The position numbers and the translations under genes were made by a program. Shown in pieces: positions 11,504-26,808 of a stretch of 38,988 nt of DNA (positions are counted from its first letter, which is position 1; each line of letters opens with the position of its first letter). The notes under the pieces are model-generated. The model was not told the origin of the DNA. It worked only from the letters and a program-made list of their open reading frames with translations, and ran no database searches. Origin of the DNA: Candidatus Symbiothrix sp. (GTDB lineage: Bacteria > Bacteroidota > Bacteroidia > Bacteroidales > Azobacteroidaceae); assembly GCA_031261285.1 (NCBI GenBank), contig JAISKM010000096.1, positions 1 to 38,988 of the forward strand, in the 5' to 3' direction.

Positions 11504-11535
11504 TTGGATATTTCAAAATAAGTTGTAACTTTGCA
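11504..11535 (+). repeat. 32 bp direct repeat, copy 1 (contains a promoter-like TAACTTTG)
   Basis: ttggatatttcaaaataagttgtaactttgca, identical to 12468-12499. Confidence 0.95.
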
Positions 11536-11802: not shown

Positions 11803-12485
11803 AAGTTTACCACGGCAGTTATTTAGCAATAGATACCATAGATTTCTCTTGTTGCAAAAAAAGAAGAGATTTTGGAAAAGGATTTTATGTGACCAAATTG
11901 CTGCCTCAAGCGGACTATTGGGCGGCTCGAAAGGGCGAAGACAACGATACAGATGGAGTTGTTACCGCATTTGAATTTGACGAAGATTTTTTTGAAGATG
12001 AGGATTTACAAACCCTTCGTTTCGATGGGTACAGCGAAGAATGGCTTGATTTTGTCGTGTTGAACAGAAAAAACAGAAAAGGGGTTCAGGCTCACAATTA
12101 CGATATTATTGAAGGTCCGGTTGCCGACGACGATATTGCTACACGAGTATTTGATTATGTGAATGGAAAAGTTTCTAAAAATCAATTTTTGAAAGAATTG
12201 ACACACAAAGCACCTTCGCACCAAATTTGTTTTTGTACTCTACAATCCTTACAGGCAATTAAAAAAGTAGAAACATACGATTTTGCTTATAATTTAAAAA
12301 ATATCACACGCGAAATTCTCAAACGCCTCATCACCGACAAAGGTTTAGACAAAGCCGATGCTGCCGACAAACTCTACAATTCCGATGTATTTAGCCAACT
12401 TTCGGATAAAACCACCAAGTTTCACGAGAAAGATTGGGAAGAACTCTATAAATTGCTGTTAGACGAATTGGATATTTCAAAATAA
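11799..12485 (+). CDS. DUF3990-family (ADP-ribosyltransferase-like fold) protein with extra C-terminal domain (module 1)
   Basis: MKVYHGSYLAI...RRDFGKGFYVTKLLPQADYWAARK...WLDFVVLNR...YDIIEGPVADDDIATRVFDY. Confidence 0.8.
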   Translation: MKVYHGSYLAIDTIDFSCCKKRRDFGKGFYVTKLLPQADYWAARKGEDNDTDGVVTAFEFDEDFFEDEDLQTLRFDGYSEEWLDFVVLNRKNRKGVQAHNYDIIEGPVADDDIATRVFDYVNGKVSKNQFLKELTHKAPSHQICFCTLQSLQAIKKVETYDFAYNLKNITREILKRLITDKGLDKADAADKLYNSDVFSQLSDKTTKFHEKDWEELYKLLLDELDISK

Positions 12486-12499
12486 GTTGTAACTTTGCA
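12468..12499 (+). repeat. 32 bp direct repeat, copy 2 (overlaps the 3' end of module-1 DUF3990 gene)
   Basis: Identical to 11504-11535. Confidence 0.95.
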
Positions 12500-13451: not shown

Positions 13452-13475
13452 AAATATATGAGATAAATGAATAAA

Positions 13476-13519
13476 GTGTGCGTAATGCACACAAAATAAG
13501 ACATATTAAAAACAGCGTT
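13476..13519 (+). repeat. Leader element copy A: hairpin GTGTGCgtaatGCACAC plus shared tail
   Basis: acaaaataagacatattaaaaacagcgtt matches 25807ff acaaaataaaagacattttaaaaacagcatt. Confidence 0.75.
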
Positions 13520-13653
13520 TAACGCTATTCTTGCTTCCTAAATTACCACTTTAAGAATACTACAAGAATAAGTAGAAACGCTCGCAGCAATGCGGGCTTG
13601 CTTATTTGTAGTATAGGTTGTGGTAAACCTTGGAAGCGGATAATTAAGTCCGC
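13514..13653 (+). ncRNA. Candidate structured RNA (or folded-DNA element)
   Basis: Nested stems GCTTCC/GGAAGC, TTACCAC/GTGGTAA, ATACTACAA(ga)ATAAG/CTTATTTGTAGTAT and GCTCGCA-GCAA-TGCGGGC, flanked by AGCGTttaACGCT and GCGGAtaattaagTCCGC. Confidence 0.6.
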
Positions 13654-13720
13654 TATTTTTATGTCCAAATTTTTAGAAATAACAGTAAATATTTTAGTAT
13701 TAAATTTTAAAATAAGAGTT

Positions 13721-13828
13721 ATGAGAAAAACAGGTTTATTTATTCTAAGTCTGTTGCTATTTGCAACGGCAATTGGTTTAGTATCGTGTGAGGAAGATGA
13801 TAGAGTTGAATATAAAATAAAATTATAA
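13721..13828 (+). CDS. Very short lipoprotein ORF (35 aa)
   Basis: MRKTGLFILSLLLFATAIGLVSCEEDDRVEYKIKL; lipobox VSC. Confidence 0.4.
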   Translation: MRKTGLFILSLLLFATAIGLVSCEEDDRVEYKIKL

Positions 13829-13832
13829 ACAG

Positions 13833-14909
13833 ATGAAAGTAACAATTAACAGGGCGAAAGCCCACAGTTTGATGAGCAAAGTGTTTTGCTCTATGATGAT
13901 AGCAATAGCTATCGTAAGTTTTGAGTCTTGCGATTCGCCCAAGTCAAAGGGTGAAAAATTAGGACAAGAGTATTGTGAGTGTCAAAAAGAATATGTGGAA
14001 GCGCAGGAGAAAGCGTATCAGGAATTTCTTGCGAAATTTGATTCTTACAGTTTCAAAACTCGTTCAGATGCTCGTCAGAAATGGCAGGATTTACAAGACG
14101 AGACTACCCGGAAGTTTGAGGAACGTAAGGGGCAAATCGAAGACAAAATAAAGAAAGCACAATCGGAGTTCCCGACAGATGTCAGTAATTTGCTTGATCC
14201 TAAAATTCTGCAGAAATACGCAAAAAATCCTCAAAAATATCTGAAAGAATTTGAGAAAAATCAAAAAAAAGCAAGTGAGTTTAACGATGGGTTAAGGAAT
14301 GCTGCCAATCAATGTGTGGAAAGTCCCATAATACCGGATTATTCAGCAATAGACAAGAAAATAGCAACCATTACTCCCGCACAGCCCGATGTACAGTCTT
14401 TGAAAAATGGATTACAAGGACGTCGAATTACCGAACCGGCAAATGGATATTTCGGACAAGGTTGGTCGTGGCAAATCAATTCGCCGGAAGAAATAAAAGA
14501 GGTGAAAATTGAAAAAGCAGAAAAAAGCGGTGATGATTACGCGCTTGATGTTCATTTGATTTTGCAAAGAGGAGAATCTGCAAAATACGAAGCGAATGTT
14601 AAAATTATATGTGTTTTGAAGCCGGAAAATGACGATTGGACAGTAGATTTTATTGAGACAAAAGACATTCAGATTGCCAAAACAGGAAGATACGATAATT
14701 GCATAACCACAGAGCAAACAAAGAATTGGGGCTCTACTTATTTGACATTTACCAATAGTTGTGATGTTAATCTTATTATTGGCGGTGAAATAACGTCTGA
14801 CGGAGTAGAATGGACAAAATTCTCACAATCGGTAAGTGCAAATAACACAGGCAGTCATTCGGTTGGAAATATAAAAGAGTACAGAATTAATTTTATCGAA
14901 CGTTGGTAA
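13833..14909 (+). CDS. Hypothetical secreted/lipoprotein
   Basis: Hydrophobic segment followed by SFESCDSPKSKGEKLGQEYCECQKEY; coiled-coil N-terminal part. Confidence 0.7.
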   Translation: MKVTINRAKAHSLMSKVFCSMMIAIAIVSFESCDSPKSKGEKLGQEYCECQKEYVEAQEKAYQEFLAKFDSYSFKTRSDARQKWQDLQDETTRKFEERKGQIEDKIKKAQSEFPTDVSNLLDPKILQKYAKNPQKYLKEFEKNQKKASEFNDGLRNAANQCVESPIIPDYSAIDKKIATITPAQPDVQSLKNGLQGRRITEPANGYFGQGWSWQINSPEEIKEVKIEKAEKSGDDYALDVHLILQRGESAKYEANVKIICVLKPENDDWTVDFIETKDIQIAKTGRYDNCITTEQTKNWGSTYLTFTNSCDVNLIIGGEITSDGVEWTKFSQSVSANNTGSHSVGNIKEYRINFIERW

Positions 14910-17931: not shown

Positions 17932-18127
17932 TGCAATGACTTGTTACTGTGCATTATTACTGATAAAATAAAAGGAGTTAAGCCGAAAATCCTGTAAAGA
18001 GTAGGCACAATAGTAAGAAGAGAGAAAAGAATAGAGTTTACATTTTAATATATTGATAATCAGCATATTAAAAAAAACTTAATTTATATAATGTCTAATT
18101 ATTAACATATAGTTAAAACATAAAATT

Positions 18128-18265
18128 ATGCAACAGTTTTCAAAAAAACAGCAGCACGCCGATTACGACACGAGAGTAATGGAGTCCGGAGACCATTTCA
18201 AAAACGGGGCAAGTCCGAAAAGCCACAAGATTAGGGTAAACTTTTTAACAACTAAACACTATTAA
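18128..18265 (+). CDS. Possible small ORF (45 aa) upstream of the protease operon; may instead be RNA
   Basis: MQQFSKKQQHADYDTRVMESGDHFKNGASPKSHKIRVNFLTTKHY; ends 4 nt before the Spi-like start codon. Confidence 0.35.
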   Translation: MQQFSKKQQHADYDTRVMESGDHFKNGASPKSHKIRVNFLTTKHY

Positions 18266-25792: not shown

Positions 25793-25836
25793 TGTGCGTA
25801 AGACGCACAAAATAAAAGACATTTTAAAAACAGCAT
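25793..25836 (+). repeat. Leader element copy B: hairpin TGTGCGtaagaCGCACA plus shared tail
   Basis: Same layout as 13476-13519; immediately upstream of the transglutaminase start codon. Confidence 0.7.
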
Positions 25837-25839
25837 TAT

Positions 25840-26808
25840 ATGAAGAGAGGAGTTATTTTTTTTGCAGCAATATTGTTTTCATTGACTGCATTTGGACAGA
25901 CAGACTTGTCTAAAATGAAAACTATTCGGGCAAATTCCAATAGGGTTGATATTCGTGATGGGAACGTTTTGCATGAAGGTGCGTGGAGAAATTTTACCTC
26001 CGCATGGACACAAATAAAGTCTATCCCTTCATATTTGGAAACGCTGCAACAAGCAGGCGGCTATGCCAAAACAGAAACAGCTGAATTACCGGCTTTTGAC
26101 TATGAAACGCCGGAAAATGGTCGCATGAAAGATGTAAGAAGGTATTTCAAACTTGATTCCATTGCAGGAAATGGAGACGAAATCTCTAAAATATTGAATA
26201 TGATGTATTGGATTCACAATAATATTCTACATGACGGTTCGAATTGGGCACTTGCAGAATTTAGTTCAATAGACTTGTATCATTATCAAAAAGCAACAGG
26301 GAAGGGTATAAATTGCAGACATTTAGCCATTGCTTTAAATGAAATGTATTTATCTATGGGGTGGAAATCTCGTTATGTAACCTGTCTTCCAAAAGATGAA
26401 AATGACCAAGATTGCCACGTTATTAATTGTGTATGGGTTGATAGTTTGCAAAAATGGATTTGGATTGACCCGACTTTTGCGGCTTATGTGAAAGATGAAA
26501 ATGGTAATTTTTTAAGTATCAGCGAAGTTCGAGAGCGATTAATTGACAGTCGCCCGTTAGTATTGAATGAAGATGCTAATTGGAACAATCAAAACAAACA
26601 AACCAAAGAGTATTATCTGGAGAATTATATGACAAAAAATCTGTATTGGATTCAAGTGCCTGTTAATAGCATGTTTAATCCGGAAAGTCGCTATCGAAAT
26701 AATGTAAATAAGTATGTTTCATTGTTGCCAACTGGTTTTACACGTTCCGATATGGAAACTATGGGAACAATTACACACGACCCTGAATACTTTTGGCAAA
26801 AACCATAA
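25840..26808 (+). CDS. Secreted transglutaminase-like (papain-fold) protein
   Basis: Signal peptide; GKGINCRHLAIALNEMYLSMGWKSRYVTCLP, DQDCHVINCVWVDSLQKWIWIDPTF: Cys/His/Asp spacing of transglutaminase-core domains. Confidence 0.85.
   Translation: MKRGVIFFAAILFSLTAFGQTDLSKMKTIRANSNRVDIRDGNVLHEGAWRNFTSAWTQIKSIPSYLETLQQAGGYAKTETAELPAFDYETPENGRMKDVRRYFKLDSIAGNGDEISKILNMMYWIHNNILHDGSNWALAEFSSIDLYHYQKATGKGINCRHLAIALNEMYLSMGWKSRYVTCLPKDENDQDCHVINCVWVDSLQKWIWIDPTFAAYVKDENGNFLSISEVRERLIDSRPLVLNEDANWNNQNKQTKEYYLENYMTKNLYWIQVPVNSMFNPESRYRNNVNKYVSLLPTGFTRSDMETMGTITHDPEYFWQKP

Follow-up and report, generated by a model that had tools for sequence, protein, structure and literature searches.

The window analysed here, a 38,988-nucleotide stretch of Candidatus Symbiothrix sp. 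(assembly GCA_031261285.1, contig JAISKM010000096.1, positions 1 to 38,988), carries a long hairpin in a gap between two genes, which raises the question of whether it encodes a structured RNA, whether such an RNA is known, and what it might do for its neighbours. The gap is indeed non-coding, as proposed in the first-pass annotation: it is preceded by a DUF3990 gene (PF13151, E=4e-48) and followed by a 35-aa lipoprotein-like ORF (13720..13828). This ORF and the next one, of 358 aa (13833-14909), are the presumed controlled genes. The two ORFs and the parts of the element described below lie on the + strand.

The core rod (13533..13637, referred to as state X) comprises helices P1-P5, delineated by folding, covariance modelling and covariation: P1 (13533-38/13632-37, GCTTCC/GGAAGC), P2 (13543-49/13620-26, TTACCAC/GTGGTAA), P3 (13557-65/13606-14, ATACTACAA/TTGTAGTAT), P4 (13568-75/13598-605), and P5 (13580-86/13591-97, GCTCGCA/TGCGGGC, closed by a GCAA loop). 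The first-pass annotation had read five stems from the letters, and both the sequence and the fold place every one of these pairings where it put them; the GCAA-capped stem is present as read, while the 5-bp stem (13568-72/13601-05, the ATAAG/CTTAT core of P4) is lengthened by the fold to 13568-75/13598-605. The GCAA loop is limited to a few copies of the element, and GTTT, TTCG, and TATA are found elsewhere. The predicted folding energy of the window element is -56.6 kcal/mol, compared with -32.3 +/- 3.7 kcal/mol for shuffled sequences (z = -6.6), and none of the 200 shuffles was as stable. The opposite strand also folds well (z = -5.8), and the fold by itself leaves the choice of strand undecided. 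The sense strand is assigned from the scores of the family model, which reach 122 bits in sense versus about 30 bits or less in antisense, and from a G-U pair in P5 that is conserved in 75 of 86 sequences.

The element is not confined to this locus. Several diverged copies came up in a nucleotide search of this genome; aligned by eye, they differ in the sequences of their stems and keep their complementarity. A covariance model built from five own-genome copies, with the window copy left out, recovers the latter at E=2.3e-12 (E-values of the covariance models rest on a short calibration). The same model finds about 85 sense copies in the 2.8-Mb assembly, a lower limit, as it missed diverged leaders that were found by BLAST (e.g., the element-like L011 and L015 on contigs C134 and C145). 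Several contigs end inside or just past element copies. Among near relatives, at least 19 of 41 genomes contain matches, in very uneven numbers (from 0 to at least 90), and covariance-model searches of Bacteroidales give copies in at least 94 of 295 genomes and at least 66 of 184 genera. A sample of the phylum yields at least 34 matched genomes of 397, mostly from other families of the class Bacteroidia. These genome counts, obtained from metagenome-derived assemblies with 9 to 90 candidates scored per genome, are lower limits. A broader covariance model, with which the window copy scores 65.8 bits, adds genomes outside the class. Besides contigs of Candidatus Symbiothrix, whose members are symbionts of the termite gut, a pattern scan of named genomes matched Alistipes and other Bacteroidales. 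What the first reading missed is that the element is multicopy and phylum-wide, that it is a gene leader, and that it has two alternative folds.

That the hairpin represents no named RNA family agrees with a search of Rfam 15, which gives no above-threshold match at the element; the best weak one is L20_leader, with 21.3 bits versus the 58.7 required. Rfam searches of 19 Bacteroidia loci of the family likewise returned no relevant match, and a known Rfam family is ruled out, the gathering threshold being reached neither at the element nor in these 19 relatives. In the literature search no description of the element was found; it may nevertheless have been listed before, unnamed, among the 3161 candidate RNAs in PMC8040213 or with motifs that were never filed, such as GUCCY-hairpin (PMC2864571). 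Plasmids gave chance short matches alone. The only Rfam matches in the window, DUF805b (17972-18007) and DUF805 (18174-18241), lie 4 kb from the element, ahead of a gene for a protein similar to the pro-part of C10 peptidases. Like the element, these RNAs occupy a leader position close ahead of start codons in the same genome; they differ from it in structure. At locus L003 a DUF805-like string, recognised by eye, follows an element copy, a possible tandem arrangement of two leaders.

Homologues without covariation had been named in the first-pass annotation as grounds for discarding the RNA; instead, the copies covary very strongly, beyond both shuffled and slid controls. In the own-genome alignment, 36 of the 40 pairs of the rod show double-sided changes, and 93% of cells are paired, compared with 69% after shuffling; an alignment of 28 distinct relatives has the same outcome. 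With 86 distinct sequences, drawn almost entirely from the wider order and class, the figures are 37 of 40 pairs and 94.4% versus 65.4% of cells. Here the covariation score of the rod is 0.709, against at most 0.103 for slid pairs, and P2 is paired in 99.7% of cells. As the rod alignments were fitted to the structure, an alignment-free test was added, in which the pairing energy of a strand with its own partner is compared with that obtained with partners from other copies. Among 46 dissimilar copies, the true partner gains 6 to 7 kcal/mol in P1, P2, and P3, with z from -17 to -27, values that overstate the number of independent events because the copies are paralogues or relatives by descent.

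The surroundings of the copies are those of a cis-regulatory leader, that is, a position 5' of same-strand genes and downstream of a promoter. Downstream, the nearest ORF shares the strand of the element in 119 of 126 cases and lies on the opposite one in 7, some of which have a shorter sense ORF, whereas upstream neighbours are nearly random in strand (80 to 63). In Bacteroidales, the next gene is typically 80-110 nt off. The Bacteroidetes promoter motif TAnnTTTG occurs within 150 nt upstream in 114 of 154 copies (74%, versus 13% in shuffled sequences) and in all 19 class copies. In the own genome, the downstream genes encode a large paralogous secreted family, lipoproteins, BspA-type LRR proteins, a C10 peptidase, HTH regulators, and a helicase; in other Bacteroidia, they encode SusC/TonB receptors, ECF sigma factors, and response regulators, and the downstream genes have no single metabolic theme in common. 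The secreted family (AQVAIGGDG...GLLLPQ N-terminus) lies downstream of at least 41 own-genome copies; the element is present in almost every visible case, and one member has a weak match to Lcl_C.

This setting bears on the possibility that the hairpin is a non-autonomous mobile element, a MITE-like palindrome serving transposition that has spread to about 85 copies. Such an origin would fit the high and uneven copy number among relatives and the frequency with which contigs end close to copies. It is hard to reconcile, however, with the strict sense orientation before genes, the promoters upstream, and the retention of the element by similar genes (SusC-like, response-regulator, HTH) in different genomes, while the conserved G-U pairs and the sense-strand model scores indicate an RNA; a P5 pattern searched for in viral contigs is not present there in exact form, a result that extends to this one pattern only. 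A mobile-element end, the other outcome under which the first-pass annotation would have given up its RNA, is disfavoured by position and promoters, and we regard the mobile origin as very improbable. It is practically certain that the element is a real, conserved structured leader RNA absent from Rfam.

Besides the rod, the leader can adopt a second set of pairings, referred to as state Y. The segment S1 (AUUCUUG, 13527..13533; UUAUUCUUG-like), just 5' of P1, has its complement in S2 (CAAGAAU, 13563..13569), where P4 begins. S2 consists of the end of P3a and the start of P4a; it pairs with S1 in state Y (hairpin I) and with P3b/P4b in state X. At the other end, segment T (13645..13653), just ahead of the U-tract (13656..13660), is complementary to P5b and the start of P4b (GCGGGCUUG, 13592..13600), and forms the 3' arm of a terminator-like hairpin II (13592-13653), as indicated by folding and pairing tests. 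Folded alone, the 5' half gives hairpin I, with S1:S2 and an apical cap Ha (UAAA/UUUA around the 5' strand of P2, 13539..13553), and the 3' half gives hairpin II, with P5b/P4b:T and a cap Hb (AGGUU/AACCU around the 3' strand of P2, 13615..13630); in the latter fold, GCGGAUAA (13636..13643) additionally pairs with UUAUUUGU (13602-13609). On average, state X is predicted to be more stable than state Y by 9 kcal/mol, a gap that leaves Y within reach.

The pairs of state Y are conserved in their own right. In the matched-versus-mismatched test, S1:S2 has z=-5.5, and in the 46 dissimilar copies S1:S2 reaches z=-8.8 and P5b/P4b:T z=-12.9, with negative controls near 0; in 34 Bacteroidia copies from outside the order, the values are -8.2 and -8.0. 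On an ordinary MAFFT alignment, the Y pairs show 46 double-changed cells versus 18.1 after shuffling and a score of 0.273 versus at most 0.141 for slid pairs. Individual copies illustrate the compensation: an aberrant P5b GGAUUC in L014 is matched by GAAUCC in its own T, a change of GGCGUG to GGCAUG in L123 is accompanied by a T that becomes CAUGCC, and in L066 the pairing could extend over about 17 nt. Hb covaries as well, with a compensatory change of GGU/ACC to GGC/GCC in 6 of 34 class sequences. Support for Ha is moderate: two of its four pairs are double-sided in the class alignment and a triple change in L181 keeps both partners, and the duplex test gives no signal for it. The two states are mutually exclusive: both draw on the nucleotides of P4a, P4b, P5b, P1, and P3, and S1:S2 and P5b:T, once formed, leave the P1-P3 strands looped out. 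Two mutually exclusive pairings are both under selection, as expected of an attenuator.

The first-pass annotation also described short hairpins on both sides of the rod, of which one holds. The 5' hairpin (A:B, AGCGUUUAACGCU, 13514..13526) has counterparts in other copies (z=-3.9), and its 5' arm alternatively pairs with the U-rich tail (A:C). This closing stem is moderately supported within the order (z=-3.6 overall) and unsupported by the pairing test in the class set. The 3' hairpin (13636-53) is weak (z=-2.9) and lost in most copies, and was rejected as a stand-alone terminator; the better conserved partner of its 3' arm lies within the rod.

The sequence downstream of T suggests how the choice between the two folds could matter. 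In 129 of 148 copies (87%), five or more of the 8 nt that follow T are U; judged by sequence, most copies have a terminator-like stem followed by a U-tract, and one subfamily of the own genome lacks it. In this subfamily, about 17 copies ending CCCUCCUUUU, the U-tract is short and set apart from the hairpin, and termination may therefore not occur in every copy. An alternative partner of the U-tract is the upstream segment A. In the window copy, the U-tract is five residues long, shorter than in most copies, with one A within the U-rich stretch. This copy has no clear TAnnTTTG promoter upstream and may be cotranscribed with the DUF3990 gene. A 32-nt promoter-like repeat (TTGGATATTTCAAAATAAGTTGTAACTTTGCA), identical at 11504-11535 and 12468-12499, precedes two tandem cassettes, each consisting of a small ORF and a DUF3990 gene.

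With its conserved structure, leader position, and covariation of both sets of pairs, the element is probably a cis-acting transcription attenuator, or riboswitch-like leader, of surface-protein and regulator genes. The leader would be transcribed from the upstream promoter and fold either as one long rod or as two hairpins. In state Y, S1:S2 would form hairpin I and P5b/P4b:T hairpin II, which, with the U-tract directly after it, could serve as an intrinsic terminator that silences the downstream gene; in state X, the terminator arm would be locked within the rod and transcription would read through. We infer this direction of control (Y off, X on) from the folds. During transcription, hairpin I could form first; the P2 strands, displayed in the apical loops of Ha and Hb, might then start the change to the rod, with T competing for P5b/P4b. 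The balance might be set by a candidate signal such as a small molecule, a protein, or a ribosome on a mini-ORF.

Such a leader could instead switch translation or mRNA stability, through shielding, an RNase site, or protein binding. Both folds are conserved even in copies with a poor U-tract and start codons lie well downstream of the element, as this would allow, and in Bacteroides mRNAs for surface proteins are targets of RNA-binding proteins such as RbpB (PMC11697453). The start codon lies beyond both folds, however, and the U-rich tract lies directly 3' of T in 87% of copies, which makes a switch of this kind unlikely. Less likely still is a multicopy family of trans-acting sRNAs, in which each copy would have its own promoter and terminator, a terminated transcript of about 200 nt would be the product, and the position before genes would be incidental. 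Promoter, structured body, and terminator-like end do make up a complete transcription unit, and Bacteroides has such a multicopy family, the 14-member FopS (PMC11697453). Yet the next gene is on the same strand by 119 to 7, typically 80-110 nt off in Bacteroidales, and no shared unpaired seed is seen, the conserved stretches falling in the switching helices, whereas FopS, by description, has a single-stranded seed at its 5' end and one terminator hairpin, and acts in trans (PMC11697453). The paralogous FopS/GibS sRNAs of Bacteroides resemble the element in being multicopy structured RNAs of Bacteroidota tied to SusC-type genes (PMC11697453); unlike FopS, the element is a leader in cis, and two folds compete in it. 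Membership in the FopS family was considered and rejected, given the rod and two-hairpin structure as compared with the description of FopS (PMC11697453).

The closest parallels of the proposed attenuator are trp-type leaders and terminator-type riboswitches, which likewise are 5' leaders with a competition between 1:2+3:4 and 2:3 pairing and a U-tract after segment 4. Here segment 1 corresponds to S1, 2 to P4a, 3 to P4b/P5b, and 4 to T. Unlike in these systems, the proposed antiterminator is a rod of about 105 nt, three of whose helices vary freely, no leader peptide overlaps segment 1, and the element fronts tens of unrelated genes. A bolder version, plausible but doubtful, is a phylum-wide Bacteroidota class of riboswitches or riboregulators, absent from Rfam, that would isomerise between rod and two hairpins, possibly starting from a loop-loop kiss of the P2 strands, and govern the surface proteome (SusC/TonB receptors, secreted proteins, and lipoproteins) and its regulators through one global signal. 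If this were true, about 85 copies in one genome would place it among the most heavily used bacterial cis-regulatory RNAs.

Bacteroidota dominate animal guts and many soils, where their surface proteins decide what is eaten and bound, and few RNA switches are known in the phylum. An uncatalogued leader in about a third of the sampled Bacteroidales genomes, numbering tens of copies in some and fronting SusC-type nutrient receptors, among other genes, in other lineages, would give these bacteria a further, common layer of control, and laboratory species would allow an immediate test. The pair of fully specified, covarying folds is in addition a clean natural system for studying the choice of RNA fold during synthesis.

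Some features upstream of the element are conserved more narrowly. A two-codon mini-ORF (AUG-AGA-UAA, 13458..13466) precedes the window copy, with the DUF3990 stop codon 7 nt ahead of it. Mini-ORFs of the form AUG-NNN-stop occur in 51 of 84 own-genome copies, compared with 6 after shuffling. Most Bacteroidales copies have one at this position, and both in the genus and in the order the frequency far exceeds chance. They are most often AUG-AUA-UAA or AUG-ACA-UAA, with AUA, ACA, GUA, GCA, AGA, and AAA as second codons; AUG-AUA-UAA recalls the lambda bar minigene. The mini-ORF is absent in class copies from other Bacteroidia, and so may be an added input rather than a core part. The hairpin H1 (GUGUGCGUAAUGCACAC, 13476..13492) is conserved in the genus and much of the order; its pairing with the tail beyond the U-tract, where the strings look complementary by eye, is unsupported by the pairing test (z=-1.0). 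A truncated copy at 25796-25837, immediately ahead of a transglutaminase-like gene at 25840, lacks the rod and consists of the H1 hairpin and a GACATTTT stretch. An rteR sRNA (a conjugative-transposon regulator) at L187:11-93 lies 1.4 kb from an element copy, ahead of a gene with a RibD_C domain.
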